Origin: Actinomycetes bacterium
GTDB lineage: Bacteria; Actinomycetota; Acidimicrobiia; Acidimicrobiales; RAAP-2
NCBI GenBank assembly: GCA_021794655.1
Contig: JAJYQJ010000038.1
Location: 1-41,783 of the forward strand
DNA length: 41,783 nt
Direction: 5' to 3'
Part shown: piece by piece, positions 11,327 to 30,302 of the stretch
Layout of the letters: each line of letters begins with the position of its first letter
Position numbering within the stretch: position 1 is the stretch's first letter
Notes under the pieces: model-generated
Databases searched by the model: none
Told to the model about the DNA's origin: nothing
Seen by the model: the letters and a program-made list of their open reading frames with translations, nothing else
Translations under genes and position numbers: made by a program

Positions 11327-11367
11327 AACATTATCATTGGAGAAACAAGTTGATAGGAGGAAACACG

Positions 11368-12030
11368 ATGACAAAGACCGTGAGATTAAAGTCCATCGTA
11401 GCGCCCGCATGCCTCGTCGCCGTCGCCTTGTTGGCCGCGGCGTGTAGCTCATCGTCGACTACTAAGTCGAGCGCTTACCCGAGCACCTCTTCGACAGCTC
11501 CAAAGCCGACCCCCGCGAGCTCAATCAACGTCTCCACCCTCCCCGTCGGCGGCGTCCAGACTTCGGTCCTCGCAAACGGTGCGGGATACACGCTCTACTA
11601 CTTCAAGCTCGACACTCCAAGCAAGGTCGCCTGCACCGCCTCTACGCCGACACCGTCGGGTGCACCCTGTACAAAGATCTGGGCGCCGATGCTGCTCGCC
11701 GCTGGGACCCCTTCGGCGCCCGCGACGATCGCCTCAGGAATCACCGTCGTCACAACGGCCAACGGACGTCAAGTCGAGTACAAAGGTCACCCTCTTTACA
11801 CTTACAGCGGCGACACCGCTCCGGGGCAGACTAACGGCGAAGGGATCCTCGGCAAGTGGTACGTCGTAACTCCTGGAATAGCTGCTCTGGCGGCTCCTGC
11901 TCCCACAACGTCGAGCACTTCAACCTCGTCGAGTTCTTCCACTTCGTCGAGTTCGTACTCCCCGTCGAGTTCTTCGACTTCGACGAAGTCTTCCCCGGCC
12001 ACCACAAAGTCGAGCAACTGGTCGGGTTGA
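11368..12030 (+). CDS. Lipoprotein with secreted repeat (COG4315 / Lipoprotein_15)
   Basis: 220 residues. A strong AGGAGG lies 7 nt before the ATG. The N-terminus is a lipoprotein signal (KSIVAPACLVAVALLAAAC, lipobox LAAAC), so the mature protein is anchored outside the membrane. Two copies of the secreted-repeat motif follow: GYTLYYFKLDTPSKVACTAS...CTKIWAPMLL and HPLYTYSGDTAPGQTNGEGILGKWYVV, known in family members as a short beta repeat of unknown function that may bind redox or surface ligands. The last 45 residues are almost pure Ser/Thr/Pro, a flexible or wall-spanning tail. The stop lies 4 bp before the left 22-bp repeat of the adjacent island. Confidence 0.82.
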   Translation: MTKTVRLKSIVAPACLVAVALLAAACSSSSTTKSSAYPSTSSTAPKPTPASSINVSTLPVGGVQTSVLANGAGYTLYYFKLDTPSKVACTASTPTPSGAPCTKIWAPMLLAAGTPSAPATIASGITVVTTANGRQVEYKGHPLYTYSGDTAPGQTNGEGILGKWYVVTPGIAALAAPAPTTSSTSTSSSSSTSSSSYSPSSSSTSTKSSPATTKSSNWSG

Positions 12031-12033
12031 GGA

Positions 12034-12055
12034 GGGTATTAGGAGCACCTCGCGC
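12034..12055 (+). repeat. 22-bp direct repeat, left copy
   Basis: Begins GGGTATTAGGAGCACC and ends TCGCGC; identical to 14282-14303. It lies just after the lipoprotein stop codon. The flanking bases differ between copies, so the exact match is 22 bp. Confidence 0.85.
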
Positions 12056-12140
12056 GAACGACCGTGCGCAGACTCCCGGGTTTCACTACTCTTGAGGTGA
12101 CCGACGGCAGGGATCGGGACGAAGGAGGGTACGAACCGGG

Positions 12141-12398
12141 ATGGCCGAGACCAAGATCAACAACCACGCCGGGTTCATCTGGTCTGTAGCGGACCTCCTT
12201 CGGGGAGACTACAAGCAGTCTGAGTACGGCAAGGTCCTCCTTGCATCTATCTGTGAGCGCTACGAGATCGCGGAGCTGTGGCTGTTCGACTCGTCTGCCA
12301 GGGGTACGGCAAGACCCGACAGCGACGTCGATCTCCTCTACATGCGTCCTCCGGCTAGCAGAGCCGATCGAGTTGGGAGGCCAGTAGGCGTTGACTGA
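12141..12398 (+). pseudogene. Chimeric remnant: HsdM N-terminus fused to MNT nucleotidyltransferase
   Basis: Open frame of 85 codons with GGAGGG about 10 nt upstream of the ATG. Residues 1-32 ([26 protein letters not shown]) are the start of type I restriction methylase subunit HsdM. After GKV the sequence switches to a minimal nucleotidyltransferase ([13 protein letters not shown], then [16 protein letters not shown]). The catalytic GS-x-x-RG motif reads DS-x-x-RG, so the first Gly is lost, while the D-x-D pair remains. The last residues drift from either family. The most likely origin is a deletion joining hsdM to a neighbouring MNT antitoxin gene of the same defence locus. It is unlikely to work as either enzyme. 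Confidence 0.7.
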
Positions 12399-12518
12399 GC
12401 CCCTGGTGTTGCGTGAAGCGTCGGTGCCTACCGTACTCATCCTTGTCCGCCTCGGGGTCGCGACGCTGGAAAACGACCACCTGTCGCGCAGTTGCCAGGA
12501 GTGCTTCTGACGTGGGGC

Positions 12519-12782
12519 ATGTGGGGCTTTTCGGTGCTGGAGGTGCCAGGGGGTGACTATAGCCACCTGGCTCGACTACGACCGATCGTCGCTGAGCGGC
12601 GAATGATTTGGACAGACAGCGGACCTGAACTGGCGGCAGGCGGTTTCCCTGTGCTGCCCACTCTCGACTTCCCTCATTGGACCGTCGTCCTGTCGGAGCC
12701 GACACCCAACCAGTTTCAAAAGGCGCGCGGGCTCTTCACGGGGCCGGTCGAGAATCCTGCGTGGTCGGGACGTGCCAGGTAG
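12519..12782 (+). CDS. Hypothetical protein in the island
   Basis: 87 residues from the ATG at 12519 (the frame is open from 12492). I do not recognise it. It reads like a genuine soluble protein (GDYSHLARLRPIVAERRMIW, FPVLPTLDFPHWTVVLSEP) rather than out-of-frame sequence. Its end overlaps the next frame's GTG by 11 bp, suggesting a coupled pair inherited with the restriction locus. Confidence 0.4.
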   Translation: MWGFSVLEVPGGDYSHLARLRPIVAERRMIWTDSGPELAAGGFPVLPTLDFPHWTVVLSEPTPNQFQKARGLFTGPVENPAWSGRAR

Positions 12783-13038
12783 TAAGCTGGTAGACGTGTC
12801 AAGCACCAAATATGACTTGTGGTTTGGTCCTAACGACGTAGGCGGTGACCTCGTCGTTGAGTGTTGGATATCCCACGGGCCGCGTAAAGATGACCCGGGT
12901 TTCGATCCTCAGCCGAGCGACTGGCTGCTGGCCAGCGACGATGAAGAGGCTCCGATGAGTGCTCGGGTGACGCGACGCGAAGGGAACCGGGTCTGGCTGC
13001 AACTGTTTCTTCCGGATTCCGCCCGCGCTGCCGTCTGA
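12772..13038 (+). CDS. Hypothetical protein in the island
   Basis: 88 residues from GTG 12772; a second GTG at 12796 (VSSTKYDLWFGPN) could be the real start. Acidic, soluble, with a motif-like PSDWLLASDDEEAPMSARVTRREGNRVWLQLFLP that looks like a small beta-rich accessory protein. No family is recognised. It sits 16 nt before the hsdR fragment, so it was probably co-transcribed with it. Confidence 0.4.
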   Translation: MPGSKLVDVSSTKYDLWFGPNDVGGDLVVECWISHGPRKDDPGFDPQPSDWLLASDDEEAPMSARVTRREGNRVWLQLFLPDSARAAV

Positions 13039-13054
13039 CGCAACGGCGAAGAGC

Positions 13055-14062
13055 ATGAAGCCTGACGAGCGGGGTTTCGAGGATGCCATCGAGGCCGCGC
13101 TGTTAGCTGGCGGCTACCTCAAGTCGGTCCCGTCTCACTTTGATCCGGTGCTGGGACTCGACGCGGCCGAGCTGTTCGCGTTCATCGGCGCCACACAGAG
13201 CACTGAGTGGGAGAAACTCCTCGGAGGCTACGGCAACGACCCGGATGCCGCTCAGCGTGCGTTCGCAAAGCGCCTCGCGTCCGAGCTCGACGCTCGGGGC
13301 ACAGTGGACGTGCTCCGCCAAGGGGTGGTGGACCAGGGAGTGACGATCCGATTGGCGTACTTCGCACCCGCGCACGGGCTCACCCTCGAGTTGCAGACGC
13401 TGTTTGCGGCGAACCGCGTGAGTGTCACCCGCCAGCTCGCCTACGAGCAGGGTTCGACCAAGACGCTCGACATCGTCCTGCTGGTGAACGGCATCCCGAC
13501 GGCCACCGCCGAGCTGAAGAACCCGCTTACGAAGCAAGACGTTGAGGACGCTATCGGTCAGTACCGAAGCGACCGGGACCCGGCCAACGTCACTTTGGCG
13601 CGCCGAGCGCTCGTGCATTTCGCCGTGGATCCCGACCGGGTCGCGATGACGACTAAACTCGGCGGGCAGGCTACGCGGTTCCTGCCGTTCAACCTCGGTC
13701 ACGACGGCGGCGCCGGCAACCCGCCAAACCCGGCCAGACACCGAACCGCCCACCTGTGGGAGCGGGTGTGGGCACGAGACGCACGGATGGACCTCCTCGC
13801 CCGTTTCATCCACGTCGAGCGACCAACTCAGGGCACCCCAGCCACCCGTCGGGCCGCTGAGCGCGTCATCTTCCCGCGCTTCCACCAATGGGATGCCGTG
13901 TTAGCCCTCGAAGCCGACGCCCGTGAGCGCGGGGCCGGGCACAGCTACCTCATCGAGCACTCGGCCGGCTTCAAGCGGATCCTCGATGACGAGGAGTTCT
14001 GTCGGGTGCTCATGGACCTATACGCCAGCCGGGTATACCAAAGGGCCCGGAGGGATCCATGA
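13055..14062 (+). pseudogene. hsdR: Type I restriction subunit HsdR with internal deletion of the motor domains
   Basis: 335 codons, open throughout, but full HsdR proteins are about 1000 residues. Residues 1-240 form the N-terminal nuclease domain; the sequence TKTLDIVLLVNGIPTATAELKNPL holds the D...E-x-K nuclease core (D at the IVLL strand, AELK). The start of the helicase domain follows (FPRFHQWDAV, SYLIEHSAG), and the frame jumps exactly where Walker A should read SGK. The tail FKRILDDEEFCRVLMDLYASRVYQRAR looks like the extreme C-terminus of HsdR. An in-frame deletion of about 650 codons thus removed all ATPase motifs. A free nuclease domain could persist, but without HsdM and HsdS it is probably inert. 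Confidence 0.78.
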
Positions 14063-14114
14063 CTCCTCCTCGCTGTCGGTCCTTGCGCAGTCAGCTCCGC
14101 CGAAGGCGACCGAG

Positions 14115-14330
14115 ATGAGGATGACCAGGTTGGCAATCGACAACCTTTTCTCCTGCGATCACTTCGAACTCGATCAGATAGACCCCAACTTGACCACCAT
14201 CGTCGGACCGAACGGGTCTGGAAAGACCAACCTGGCCCGCCTTTTCGAACTCATCACTACCGCTCTCGATTGGGTGGAGGTGGGTATTAGGAGCACCTCG
14301 CGCCGTCCACTGCTTCGCAGCGGTATATGA
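14115..14330 (+). pseudogene. AAA ATPase (AAA_15/AAA_23-like), N-terminal fragment
   Basis: Starts with MRMTRLAIDNLFSCDHFEL and a perfect Walker A, GPNGSGKTN, as in OLD/RecF-like ATPases that accompany type I restriction and other defence loci. After about 56 codons (ALDWVE) the frame runs straight into the right-hand 22-bp repeat and ends at a chance stop in chromosomal sequence. Walker B and the signature motif are absent. The gene was truncated by the event that produced the repeat boundary. Confidence 0.7.
14282..14303 (+). repeat. 22-bp direct repeat, right copy
   Basis: Identical over 22 bp to 12034-12055. It interrupts the ATPase fragment. A small hairpin (CTGC-TTC-GCAG) follows immediately and may be the displaced terminator of the lipoprotein gene. 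Confidence 0.85.
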
Positions 14331-14337
14331 CGGGCGA

Positions 14338-14364
14338 TTGACGGTTGCGCCACGGATGTAAAGT
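14338..14364 (+). promoter_or_regulatory. Promoter of the NTF2-like gene, leaderless
   Basis: TTGACG at 14338-14343 and TAAAGT at 14359-14364 are separated by 15 nt; the ATG follows 5 nt later at 14370. The short distance predicts a leaderless mRNA. The -35 spacing is shorter than ideal. Confidence 0.4.
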
Positions 14365-14369
14365 TGTGC

Positions 14370-14879
14370 ATGAATGATTTAGGTGCGCTCTTTGACCGAC
14401 ATATCGCGACGGAGTTCGTGGATAAAGATCCCGATGCGACCATGGCGACGATGGCAGATAACCCGACGCTCTATCACGTACCCGTCGGAACCGGAGGGCG
14501 TGGTCGCGATCAGGTCGCCCAGTTCTACCGAGATCACTTTATTCCAGCGTGGCCCCCCGATGTCGAGATAACGCCTCTGTCGAGAACGGTTGACTCCGCA
14601 CGGGTCGTCGATGAGTTCATCGTGAACTTCACACACGACAGGGTCATGGACTTCTGGCTGCCGCGAATCCCCCCGACTGGCCGTAAGGTCTCGTTGCCAC
14701 ATGTCGTCATCGTGGGTTTCGAGGGAGACAAGGTCTTATACGAACACATCTACTGGGATCAGGCCTCGCTTCTCGTGCAACTCGGACTCCTCGATCCAAG
14801 TTCGTTACCGGTAACCGGGAGTGATCAGGCCCGCGGTCTCACCGACGCCTCACTGCCGTTGAACTGGATCCTTCAGTAA
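14370..14879 (+). CDS. NTF2-like / SnoaL-like protein
   Basis: 169 residues, soluble. It shows the usual pattern of an ester-cyclase-like NTF2 fold: a starting helix (LGALFDRHIATEFVDKD), the strand NPTLYHVPVG, a helix with GRDQVAQFYRDHFIPAWPPDVEI, and strands VVDEFIVNFTHDRVMDFWLPRIPPTGRKVSLPHVVIVGFEGDKVLYEHIYWDQASLLVQLGLL. Family members include cyclases, isomerases and non-catalytic proteins, so the reaction is open. Position 14370 is preferred over the TTG at 14364 because of the promoter spacing. It converges with the alpha/beta hydrolase (7 nt gap). Confidence 0.75.
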   Translation: MNDLGALFDRHIATEFVDKDPDATMATMADNPTLYHVPVGTGGRGRDQVAQFYRDHFIPAWPPDVEITPLSRTVDSARVVDEFIVNFTHDRVMDFWLPRIPPTGRKVSLPHVVIVGFEGDKVLYEHIYWDQASLLVQLGLLDPSSLPVTGSDQARGLTDASLPLNWILQ

Positions 14880-14886
14880 TATTTGG

Positions 14887-15765
14887 CTACCACCCCAGTT
14901 CGCTCATCGCAATCAAGAACTCGTCGGGCCTTTCTATCATCGGGAAATGCCCCGCCGACTCAATCATGCGAAGCTGCGCGTCCGGGCGCGCCAAGAGCAG
15001 CCTCGCAGCCATCTCGGATACCGCTATCGGATCTTTCGCTCCCCAGATAACGGAGAGTGGCGCAGGATGGCTCTCGATCGCACCTGTATATCGACCCTGG
15101 TTCTGTCTGCGCTCTTCTATATAGCGAATAAGACGAGCGAGCAACAGGTGACCGTCGTTCACCATGATCATCTCGCATTGGGCCGCGAGTTCGGAGTCGC
15201 GAACCGTTGAACTCGGCGCATGTGTCGCTCGCAAGCTCTCCATGAGCGACTCCCGTGTGATCACCCCTAGGTCCTCGAACTTCTCGTCGGCCATTTCGAG
15301 GAGCATCTCTTGGCCCGCACTGAGATGCGCCATCTCGATATAGATACTGCCGTTCGTCAACAGCCGCTCTACGATCTCGACGCTCCACGCACCTTCCATC
15401 TCGCGCGCAAGAAGCTCGCCGCCCACAGTATCTCCCATGTCGTGCGTGAACATCGAGAGCCGCTCGATGCCAAGAGTTCCCGTCAGAGCAACGACGATGT
15501 CCGCCTGTAGCCCGATGCTATATCTGATGTCGGGTTTCTCCGATAGTCCATAACCAAGAAGATCGAACAAGACTACGCGACGGTCTCTCCGGACTCTGTC
15601 CACCAGGGCGTAGAAGTCGTAAGACGAAGTCGGAAAGCCGTGCAAGAAAACCAGCGGCTCTCTCTCCTCTATGCCCGACGGCCCAAGATCGATCGCAAAT
15701 ATCCGATACCCACATAGCTCGTAGTAGCTGCCGAGAGCTTCCCACTTTCGAACCTCAGATAGCAT
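14887..15765 (-). CDS. Alpha/beta hydrolase, Asp-nucleophile (epoxide hydrolase / haloalkane dehalogenase-like)
   Basis: 292 residues, start chosen at 15765 because GAGAGG lies 6-7 nt upstream. The oxyanion motif is HGFP (residues 42-45). The nucleophile elbow is THDMGDTVGG with Asp109 in place of the Ser of esterases, which is characteristic of haloalkane dehalogenases and epoxide hydrolases. WGAKDPIAV (Asp near 245) and SAGHFPMIE (His near 273) supply the remaining triad members. The cap region around residues 135-215 is short. Substrate unknown. It is divergent from the PLP-lyase operon. Confidence 0.8.
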   Translation of the reverse strand: MLSEVRKWEALGSYYELCGYRIFAIDLGPSGIEEREPLVFLHGFPTSSYDFYALVDRVRRDRRVVLFDLLGYGLSEKPDIRYSIGLQADIVVALTGTLGIERLSMFTHDMGDTVGGELLAREMEGAWSVEIVERLLTNGSIYIEMAHLSAGQEMLLEMADEKFEDLGVITRESLMESLRATHAPSSTVRDSELAAQCEMIMVNDGHLLLARLIRYIEERRQNQGRYTGAIESHPAPLSVIWGAKDPIAVSEMAARLLLARPDAQLRMIESAGHFPMIERPDEFLIAMSELGW

Positions 15766-21160: not shown

Positions 21161-21586
21161 ATGCCGACTGGCTTACTCGACACCTCGGTCATCATCGACT
21201 GGGACGACCCGATGGTCGCCGCGGCTCTTCCAGAATAGGTCGCTGTGTGTGTGATTACGCTCGGTGAACTCGCTGCTGGGCCACACCTCGCGACCCCCAG
21301 CTCCGAGGGCGCGCGGCGTCAAATTCGTCTCCAACAGGTAGAGGCGAGCTTCGAGCCACTCCCCTTCGACGCCTCGGCAGCTCGGAGCTACGGACAGATC
21401 GTGGCAGCTATCGCGGAGACGGGTCGTTCGCATCGACGACGTGTCGCCGACCTACTGATCGCCGCCACCGCTCACGCTAACGGCTTAGCTCTCTACACGC
21501 GAAATCCCGACGACTTCGGCGTATCGGCGCTCATCGCATCGCATGTTGTTGCACGCATCTCGGCATCTCATCCGCGCACTTCATAG
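21161..21586 (+). pseudogene. VapC-like PIN toxin with in-frame stop
   Basis: The frame starts MPTGLLDTSVIIDW (first catalytic Asp) and reads through a TAG at 21236-21238 (codon 26) into the rest of a normal PIN domain: ELAAG (Glu), RRVADLLIAATA (Asp) and NPDDF. Both sides are in the same frame, so only the one stop separates them. The downstream piece could start at a GTG (21245), but that would lack the first catalytic Asp. Inactivation by a nonsense mutation is the simplest reading; a sequencing error or suppression cannot be excluded. Confidence 0.78.
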
Positions 21587-21777
21587 AGCTCGGCGGCGCG
21601 TCAGCCAACGCACGACCGTAGCCGAGGACCAATTATCACACCGACACCGCGTCCTGGCTAAAAGCTCTCGCGATTGGGTACTTGAACTCTCACGAGACAA
21701 GCTCAGAGTCACCAGGGCCGCTACCTCTCGATGCGACTACTTCAAGAGATCTCTCGCCTGCATGATCTCCTGAGCGA

Positions 21778-21783
21778 TATAGC
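21778..21783 (+). promoter_or_regulatory. -10 box of the relBE-like operon
   Basis: TATAGC ends 7 nt before the ATG at 21791, so the transcript is predicted to be leaderless. No Shine-Dalgarno site is seen, which agrees. Confidence 0.4.
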
Positions 21784-21790
21784 CTTACTT

Positions 21791-22081
21791 ATGGTCGTTC
21801 CAGCTTCCGAACAGGTCTCCCTGGCGGATGCGAAGGCACGTCTGTCCGAGGTCGTCGAAGGGATCGAGACCGAGCATCGTCGGGTCGTGATCACCAAACA
21901 CGGACGGCCAACTGTGGTCGTGCTGGCAGTCGAGGATCTCGAGGCGCTCGAAGACACGCTCGACATGCTCTCGGATCCAGACGCCATGGCCGACCTTCGC
22001 GAGGCAGCGACCGCCCGTCGGACCGGAAAGACGATCGACCTGACCAAGGAGGAGGCACGCGTCCGCTGGTCGCGTGGGTGA
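21791..22081 (+). CDS. RelB/Phd-family antitoxin
   Basis: 96 residues from ATG 21791. VSLADAKARLSEVVEGIETEHRRVVITKHGRPTVVVLAVEDLEALEDTLDML is a classical Phd/YefM-RelB antitoxin DNA-binding domain, with an acidic, flexible C-terminus that would wrap the toxin. The stop overlaps the RelE start by 8 bp, the usual coupled arrangement. The frame is open upstream to 21731, but the extra residues look unrelated. It likely autoregulates its own leaderless promoter. Confidence 0.85.
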   Translation: MVVPASEQVSLADAKARLSEVVEGIETEHRRVVITKHGRPTVVVLAVEDLEALEDTLDMLSDPDAMADLREAATARRTGKTIDLTKEEARVRWSRG

Positions 22082-22945: not shown

Positions 22946-23235
22946 TCACGGTCTTGCCTTCTTCCTGGCTGAAGCTGGGGGCTTTTGCTCGCATCTTGGT
23001 CGTGGCCTTGCATGTTGTTCTGTTCTCCTCCGATGCGACCTGACATCTGCTACCGACACCATTGACCATAGCGAACCCGAAGCCCAAACGGGCCTCCTCC
23101 GACCTCCAGTCCCCCACATCGAGGTCGAGAGCCGATCCGCGGTACGGCCCTTCTTACCGATAGCGCTCGCCTGTACACATCCGACGGCGACGAACCCTCC
23201 CGCGATCGGAAAGGTTCGACCACCGTCAGGGTCGG

Positions 23236-23309
23236 CGCCCCCGGCAGGAGTCGAACCCGCAACCTGGTGGGTAGAAGCCACCCGCTCTATCCAGTTGAGC
23301 TACAGGGGC
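23236..23309 (-). tRNA. tRNA-Arg (UCU)
   Basis: Full cloverleaf on the minus strand: acceptor GCCCCTG/CGGGGGC, D-arm GCTC/GAGC, anticodon stem GGTGG/CCACC with loop CTTCTAC (anticodon TCT), and T-arm GCGGG-TTCGACT-CCTGC. CCA is not encoded. It reads AGA/AGG codons. Confidence 0.93.
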
Positions 23310-23487
23310 AGAGCTACGCCGCTAAATACGCCGACAAGCGTTCGTCGTCAACGGTCAACCAGAGTAACCCAATCCCTGTCGATACGCGAATTTTCCTCGT
23401 CAAACTGCCTTTCAATAGCTTACCGGCTCTGATCCGGCCGCTCGTCGTGCGATACCGATCGCGACTGTGGCAAACTGGTAACTCACG

Positions 23488-23564
23488 GTGGGCGTAGCTC
23501 AGCTGGTCAGAGCGCCGGGATGTGGCCCCGGAGGCCGCGGGTTCGAACCCCGTCGCTCACCCCA
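23488..23564 (+). tRNA. tRNA-His (GUG)
   Basis: Cloverleaf on the plus strand: acceptor GTGGGCG/CGCTCAC, D-arm GCTC/GAGC, anticodon stem CCGGG/CCCGG with loop ATGTGGC (anticodon GTG), T-arm GCGGG-TTCGAAC-CCCGT. The discriminator is C and the 3' CCA is encoded (23562-23564). A G precedes position 1 (23487), as required for the G-1 of tRNA-His. Divergent from tRNA-Arg, 178 bp apart. Confidence 0.93.
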
Positions 23565-23883: not shown

Positions 23884-24300
23884 TCACATTTCGAGCGTGA
23901 GAGAAGCGGGGTCGATCGCGATCCCGACAACCCTTCCCAGTCGGGTGAGGTCAGCGTCGTGGGCGAGCAACGTGGCATCGTTCCGGCGCGCGACCGACGC
24001 GATCATGCAGTCGATCAGGCCTCGCGGCGTGACTCCGGCTCGTCGGCACAGGCGGTAGATGCGCGCCGCTGCCTCGAAGTCCGCCGCCGCGTCGAACGGG
24101 AGCAGATGGAACCGCAGGAGCAATCTGCGCAGGTCTTCTTCCCGGCCGTCTGCCTTGGCCCCTGCCATGACCTCCATCATCACCAGTTCCGTAGTCGCAA
24201 GTGGGCCGTCATCAGCGATGAGCTCGGACACTCGGTCGTCTACCGGACTCCCCGTTGCCCTGTCGTACTCGACCCATGCCGACGTGTCGGCCAGGATCAT
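23884..24300 (-). CDS. vapC: VapC toxin (PIN domain ribonuclease)
   Basis: 138 residues. The four PIN catalytic acids are visible: LADTSAW (Asp5), MMEVMAG (Glu), LIDCMIAS (Asp) and HDADL (Asp). The length suits VapC (125-140). VapC toxins are Mg-dependent RNases that often cut tRNA or rRNA. The ATG overlaps the vapB stop as ATGA, so translation is coupled. The frame is intact. Proximity to tRNA-His and tRNA-Arg is noted, but no target can be inferred. Confidence 0.9.
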   Translation of the reverse strand: MILADTSAWVEYDRATGSPVDDRVSELIADDGPLATTELVMMEVMAGAKADGREEDLRRLLLRFHLLPFDAAADFEAAARIYRLCRRAGVTPRGLIDCMIASVARRNDATLLAHDADLTRLGRVVGIAIDPASLTLEM

Positions 24301-29513: not shown

Positions 29514-30302
29514 GTGGCAGGTACTGCGTTTTCTCGCGAAGAGATAGAGGCTTTTATTTCGGCGCTCGAAGCTGACCCTGAGTTACGCTCGCGCGTGGAA
29601 CGAGTAATCCTGCACGACCGTTTATTGGCGATTCCTGAACATCTCGATCACTTCATCGAGGCTACCGACCGTCGTTTCTCTACCCTCGAAGAAGTGGCCG
29701 CAGAGACCAGCCGGAACGTCTCGGAGCTGAGTGACGCTCAACGGCGCACTGAAGCGGCACTTGCGGAGCTGAGCCGGAACGTCTCGGAGCTGAGTGACGC
29801 TCAACGGCGCACTGAAGCGGCACTTGCGGAGCTGAGCCGGAACGTCTCGGAGCTGACCGAGTTGGCGGGACGGCACGAAGTCTCCGTGGGCCATCTGATA
29901 GGTGGTTACTTTGAGGCGAAGTGGCGAGAGAATGGGACTTCTTATCTGGGTAGCCAAGGGTTCCGTAAGGTACGCTACATCGCAAAGAACGCTCTGGCGG
30001 ATTTACTCGACGAAGTTGCCGACCAGGTCCATGACGATATTCTTCTAGCAGATGCGGTTCATTCGGTCGTTCGCAAAGATTTGGGAACCGAAGCCTACGT
30101 CGTTACTGAAGTTTCCTCGCGAATACATCGAGACGATGTTGTGCGTGCCTCACGCCGTGCACGTTCACTCCAAGACGCGGTTCACACCGAGTGCGTGCCA
30201 GTTGTCGCTGGGGCGTCAATCGATGACATGGCGAAGTCACTTGCGAATGAATCGAAGGTGATCGTAGTGGTGCCAAACGAATGGCAGTTGCACGCCGCGT
30301 AG
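29514..30302 (+). CDS. Coiled-coil protein with C-terminal PD-(D/E)XK-like domain (DUF3782-like)
   Basis: 262 residues from a GTG start (no Shine-Dalgarno site). Residues 65-125 are a coiled coil built from an exact 21-residue repeat (SRNVSELSDAQRRTEAALAEL, repeated twice with a third partial copy), encoded by a 63-bp tandem repeat. The C-terminal part (FEAKWRENGTSYLGSQGF, VVRKDLGTEAYVVTEVSSRIHRDDVVRASRRA, VPVVAGASI) has the order expected of a PD-(D/E)XK nuclease-like fold (the E-x-S in place of E-x-K), as in DUF3782 proteins. Function unknown. Repeat number may vary between strains. Confidence 0.65.
   Translation: MAGTAFSREEIEAFISALEADPELRSRVERVILHDRLLAIPEHLDHFIEATDRRFSTLEEVAAETSRNVSELSDAQRRTEAALAELSRNVSELSDAQRRTEAALAELSRNVSELTELAGRHEVSVGHLIGGYFEAKWRENGTSYLGSQGFRKVRYIAKNALADLLDEVADQVHDDILLADAVHSVVRKDLGTEAYVVTEVSSRIHRDDVVRASRRARSLQDAVHTECVPVVAGASIDDMAKSLANESKVIVVVPNEWQLHAA
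29709..29856 (+). repeat. 63-bp tandem repeat in coding sequence
   Basis: Two identical 63-bp units (29709-29771 and 29772-29834) and a third that stops after about 22 bp. The unit is 21 codons or three heptads, so gain or loss keeps both frame and coiled-coil phase. Confidence 0.93.

Follow-up and report, generated by a model that had tools for sequence, protein, structure and literature searches.

A 22-bp direct repeat around most of the relic of a type I restriction-modification cluster is most likely an ordinary scar of decay

Introduction

Restriction-modification (RM) systems that insert with a long target duplication were reportedly described by Nobusato et al. in 2000. Double illegitimate recombination is said to be the subject of the 2008 work of Hulter and Wackernagel, short-patch events reportedly that of Harms and colleagues, and microhomology-mediated template switching reportedly that of the paper on MMBIR. 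In such events, a patch of tens of bases that comes from another place is said to be left where two sequences join through homology that is short or imperfect. The locus described here would resemble them in this, and is unlike them in being deduced from one assembled sequence instead of being an event observed. Parts of two published accounts also report long, variable target duplications on insertion of RM systems (PMC3031569; PMC4978471). As in such insertions, the restriction locus here lies between direct repeats that exceed the usual insertion-sequence duplications in length, and no recombinase is in sight; the difference is that the repeat unit seems to belong to the ATPase gene of the island itself and not to a host target.

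The closest fuller locus, in the relative G044, is a type I RM locus with an MntA/HepT pair and an OLD-like ATPase, arranged in the order hsdM-hsdS-mntA-hepT-hsdR-ATPase. Its ORFs carry the Pfam domains N6_Mtase, Methylase_S, HepT-like, HSDR_N, AAA_21/OLD-like_TOPRIM and Peptidase_M78; an MntA-like ORF (NCBIfam, below cut-off) lies between hsdS and hepT, and the ATPase protein contains AAA_21, AAA_15 and OLD-like_TOPRIM. The hsdR gene of G044 (L103 3472-6452) is divided over several ORFs and may therefore be broken or carry sequencing errors. The locus reported here is like that of G044 in its gene order and in the 85-92% DNA identity of its hsdR N-terminal part and mntA fragments, and unlike it in that each of the surviving genes is truncated or internally deleted.

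The locus lies in a stretch of 41,783 nucleotides, the whole of which was analysed and is here called the window. An earlier note, made from the sequence of the window, had drawn attention to the repeat and had offered either att-like site-specific integration or a recombination scar as its origin. In this paper, we report a computational analysis of the repeat pair, of the gene remains between its copies and of related loci in other genomes. The window is part of a draft assembly, and a misassembly at the repeat can be checked from the reads alone.

Results

The repeat pair

The earlier note had claimed two identical 22-bp copies and these are present: the 22-mer GGGTATTAGGAGCACCTCGCGC occurs twice, exactly and in direct orientation (Table 1). 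The own genome (2,707,925 bases in 155 contigs) holds exactly these two copies at up to three mismatches; the 22-mer is not common genome-wide, and a dispersed genomic repeat is ruled out as its source. The distance between the lipoprotein stop and the left copy had been given as 4 bp and is in fact 3 bases, counted from the TGA at 12028-12030. To the left, the match grows to 32 nt with two mismatches (94%), and the left unit consequently takes in the lipoprotein stop codon. The right edge of the repeat is sharp and the left edge fuzzy, the decamers that precede the two 22-mers agreeing at 8 of 10 positions (chance 5.8e-4).

None of 100 shuffles of the window contained any 22-mer match, and the longest exact direct repeat per shuffle was 14-18 nt (30 shuffles), in agreement with the earlier view that a match of this length is beyond chance. 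Natural sequences served as a further control. Exact direct repeats of at least 22 nt were present in 6 of the 49 loci of at least 12.8 kb, i.e. those long enough among 80 loci (L023-L102), and are in natural loci uncommon, not extraordinary. The 22-mer was absent at up to three mismatches from the 99 relatives searched, a set that holds no genome of the same genus, and at up to 4-5 mismatches from the fetched relatives of the locus; viral contigs were without the exact 22-mer.

A search of 11500-15000 against Rfam gave no structured-RNA match at E up to 1. A terminator or hairpin was rejected as the cause of the repeat, as the left copy folds no better than shuffles (z -0.06); two stretches over the right copy fold slightly better than shuffles (z -1.61 and -0.58).

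Table 1. Features of the repeat-bearing region, in window coordinates
Feature	Position	Strand	Remarks
Lipoprotein gene, Lipoprotein_15 / SCO0930 kind	11350..12030	+	PF03640 E 8.4e-16; NCBIfam NF040526 E 1e-14, below cut-off
Left repeat unit, 32 nt	12024..12055	+	22-mer at 12034-12055; read as a displaced ATPase patch
hsdM upstream region	12062..12140	+	79.6% identity with L025 from 12062
hsdM, first 34 codons, then deletion	12141..12241	+	PADLOC MTase_I, residues 2-34
mntA-type nucleotidyltransferase fragment	12240..12354	+	90% DNA identity with G044 mntA; NTP_transf_2
Small ORF 1, 96 aa	12492..12782	+	no family or plasmid match
Small ORF 2, 88 aa	12772..13038	+	no family or plasmid match
hsdR N-terminal part	13055..13970	+	HSDR_N nuclease domain, PF04313 E 5.2e-15
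hsdR C-terminal end	13969..14062	+	preceded by an internal deletion of 1973 bp relative to G044
AAA ATPase gene start	14115..14281	+	OLD-like in the fuller relative; AAA_23 for the fragment
Right repeat unit, 32 nt	14272..14303	+	22-mer at 14282-14303; read as native ATPase with a 7-nt insertion against G542
Possible ATPase relic continuation, weak	14304..14363	frame +1	profile rank 26 of 83478 translated places
SnoaL-like gene, right flank	14370..14879	+	PF12680 E 1.7e-10

Remains of the restriction locus

The interval between the copies is the relic of a type I restriction-modification cluster and not a working one. The genes hsdM, hsdS and hsdR do not occur in it together: hsdM survives in its first 34 codons and hsdR in two pieces, and no hsdS-like match was found among the scanned ORFs of the interval. 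The suggestion that everything between the copies is a restriction gene stands for the hsdM and hsdR relics and fails for the mntA-type fragment and for the region that follows it (12355-13054, approximately 700 bp), in which two small overlapping ORFs gave no match in Pfam, NCBIfam, PADLOC, PHROGs or PLSDB and a six-frame search against the fetched loci returned one weak hit (E 0.01).

Two large deletions have occurred, of which one took most of hsdM/hsdS and the other the central part of hsdR. At the first, the hsdM start is fused in frame to the mntA fragment within an ORF of 85 aa (12141-12398); the alignment ends exactly at 12241 for 11 of the 13 hsdM-start places (14 genomes reached through loci), and the hsdM and mntA alignments overlap by 2 bp (CT). 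At the second, the N-terminal part of hsdR, with 84-85% DNA identity to G044 and L023-L025, breaks off at what reads as the Walker A region. Its alignments in the same genomes stop at 13968-13970 in 12 of 17 places and earlier in the remaining 5, and those of the C-terminal end begin exactly at 13969 in all 9 places, the overlap at the joint being 2 bp (CT) against L023, L024, L025 and L027 and 0 against G044, L026 and L028. As the stops and starts are shared by alignments to other genomes, these are deletion points that arose in the lineage of the window. Overlaps of 0-2 bp at both large deletions fit illegitimate recombination and are so short that they can be due to chance.

Upstream of hsdM, the DNA is 83-85% identical to L024, L026 and L027 from 12075-12079 onwards. 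In all, the fragments have approximately 75-92% DNA identity to the loci of G044, G542 and other genomes, which is consistent with a possible horizontal origin.

Flanking genes and other features of the window

The restriction relics are flanked by a lipoprotein gene and a SnoaL-like gene. SnoaL homologues were found in 15 of the 171 other genomes of the family (16 of 172 with our own counted). The contexts of the five best flank homologues (L140-L144) were inspected and all lack the lipoprotein gene beside the SnoaL gene, the relatives including no genome of the same genus.

Several further observations were made in the window. The Ser/Thr-rich tail of the lipoprotein is coded by 18-bp imperfect tandem repeats (11909-11994). 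A perfect tandem array of a 63-bp unit in 2.3 copies (29709-29856) lies within an ORF of 262 aa (29514-30302) for which Pfam gave no match at E up to 1e-5. A tRNA-Arg gene and a tRNA-His gene stand divergently within approximately 330 bp (23234-23564); to one side of them lie ORFs for a PIN-domain protein and a Phd/YefM antitoxin (21245-22081), and to the other a further PIN-domain ORF (23884-24300).

Likeness of the repeat unit to the ATPase gene

The nearest relative of the truncated ATPase gene is in G542, with 81% DNA identity over 13969-14280; no closer ATPase was found in partly overlapping sets of 397 order, 395 class, 32 + 3 family and 396 phylum genomes. Plasmids yielded no ATPase homologue and viral contigs distant ones only. 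Past 14280 the G542 gene reads ...GGGTCGAGGAGCGAGCACCTC, and at the matching ATPase codons it carries GGGTCGAGGAG, a 7-nt gap and GAGCACCTC. Beyond the 81% alignment, G542 thus has GGGTCGAGG followed by AGCGAGCACCTCAGGTTGTCC, against GGGTGGAGG followed by TGGGTATTAGGAGCACCTCGCGCCGTCC in the window.

The strongest single result of the analysis is the alignment of the left 32-nt unit to this site in G542, which with one 7-nt gap was matched by 9 of 5000 background pieces. The right 32-nt unit gave a weaker result (97 of 5000 pieces as good), as did the bare 22-mer (101 of 5000). The decamer before the left 22-mer equals G542 at 9 of 10 positions (chance 4e-5, from random window decamers), and this decamer stands at the end of the unrelated lipoprotein gene. 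The tests of the repeat against the ATPase were picked after the alignment had been seen and draw on one relative, G542, whose site is 7 nt shorter than that of the window and which is the sole ATPase relative close enough for a test of the site; from this relative, the likeness of the repeat unit to the ATPase gene appears to be statistically supported. Of the two origins proposed for the repeat in the earlier note, the recombination scar is the one favoured here, since the repeat unit resembles what a relative has natively at the corresponding place of its ATPase coding sequence.

The other proposal fared less well. If the 22-mer were the integrase core (attL/attR) of a former element, exact direct repeats would be expected at both ends of foreign-looking DNA, and an attP within the ATPase gene would put the ATPase start beside the right copy; both are seen. 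The rest of the ATPase gene should then follow the left copy, where hsdM-upstream DNA is found instead, and no second ATPase piece was detected in the own genome at E up to 0.001. The site lies outside any tRNA gene, and the fetched relatives of the locus are, as given above, without the 22-mer. That no recombinase remains, as had been stated earlier, holds for the 37 window ORFs scanned with Pfam, in which no recombinase domain was found. An att core was rejected as the main reading on account of the ATPase remainder that is not beside the left copy and the lack of a recombinase in the scanned ORFs, and we regard it as very improbable.

The DNA beyond the right copy

Read as ATPase with a 7-nt insertion, the right copy would move the reading frame by one. 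In the shifted frame, the DNA after it gives CFAAVYDGRLTVAP, similar to the stretch YVxAxYDGxxxGxP that the homologues have; this likeness takes rank 26 among 83478 places, with approximately 0.03 expected in the 86 starts considered, and when the protein profile was cut differently the expected numbers were 0.07, 0.12 and 0.28. When the DNA itself was compared with the ATPase, 274 of 5000 background pieces were as good as the DNA after the right copy, a marginal result, and 3528 of 5000 were as good as the DNA after the left copy, which is not ATPase-like.

When the DNA after 14280 was aligned to G542 without an anchor, 23 of 500 shuffles did as well (41 of 500 for an unrelated control from the window). 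For the DNA after the repeat alone, the shuffles that were as good numbered 398 of 500 with G542, 62 of 500 with G288 and 322 of 500 with G044. The anchored extension past 14280 was equalled by 2 of 300 shuffles but by 19 of 400 random places of the window, and an extension anchored after GAGCACCTC by 45 of 300 random places. A continuation of the ATPase beyond the right copy is only suggested by these comparisons. Since the ATPase relic may pass the right copy, the repeats may not mark the ends of the island.

Discussion

From the comparisons with relatives, the 22-mer pair probably represents a stretch of the ATPase gene at its native place together with a repair copy on the left. A type I RM cluster would have decayed by illegitimate deletions; the 22-mer would be part of 32 nt from its ATPase gene, with the right copy at the native place, and the left copy would be a short patch pasted at the joint of the lipoprotein gene and the hsdM-upstream DNA. 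The most likely origin of the patch would be template switching or patch repair with the ATPase as donor at the time when the junction formed, and the patch would supply the present stop codon of the lipoprotein ORF. What we infer here is the direction in which the copying went, the mechanism of the repair and that the lipoprotein stop came with the patch; in our reading, the 32-nt unit serves no function today. The bacterial end-joining factor Ku was not found in this assembly and is present in 13 of 20 other genomes searched; end joining by Ku is therefore not specially supported.

The main rival to this account is that an RM fragment was inserted with a 22-bp target duplication, for which there is precedent in the parts of the published accounts that describe RM insertions with long duplications (PMC3031569; PMC4978471). 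The boundaries of homology agree with such an insertion: clear ATPase homology stops at 14280, one base short of the right copy, with no firm ATPase likeness in the DNA after that copy, and the hsdM-upstream homology opens at 12062, six bases past the left copy. Left unexplained would be the 8/10 match just outside the 22-mers and the alignment of the whole left unit to the ATPase gene, and the 9/10 match of the left decamer to the relative's ATPase would be a coincidence; the insert must, moreover, already have been truncated within the ATPase gene. We consider a target duplication unlikely.

The copying could also have run in reverse. The 22-mer following the lipoprotein gene would then be host sequence, to which a broken end of the ATPase would have annealed via the GGGTnGAGGnGGG likeness; this end would have copied approximately 20 nt and been joined to the DNA that precedes the SnoaL gene. 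Such an event would account for the sharp right and fuzzy left edges of the repeat, and for why clear homology to the ATPase stops at 14280. It would leave to chance that GAGCACCTC matches G542 and that the DNA after the right copy reads as ATPase-like, and it appears to us quite improbable.

A repair patch copied from the ATPase thus remains the preferred account, and the repeat pair is most likely an ordinary scar of decay and not a place where a mobile element landed. Where defence genes have decayed, direct repeats around them can mislead, and what looks like an att core can be the native gene sequence of a relic plus a repair copy. Checking each repeat against intact relatives before boundaries are called avoids the invention of a mobile element. 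The locus also shows the stepwise decay of a restriction cluster, in which fuller relatives fix the deletion points to within a few bases. We propose, tentatively and as a possibility that falls well short of being probable, that a short-patch event put 32 nt of a decaying defence gene at the end of a neighbouring host gene and in this way gave the lipoprotein a new, fixed stop. If true, the 32-nt patch would be a natural case, in what the names of hsdR relatives suggest is an actinobacterium, of a dying restriction locus rewriting the end of a host gene by way of its own junction.
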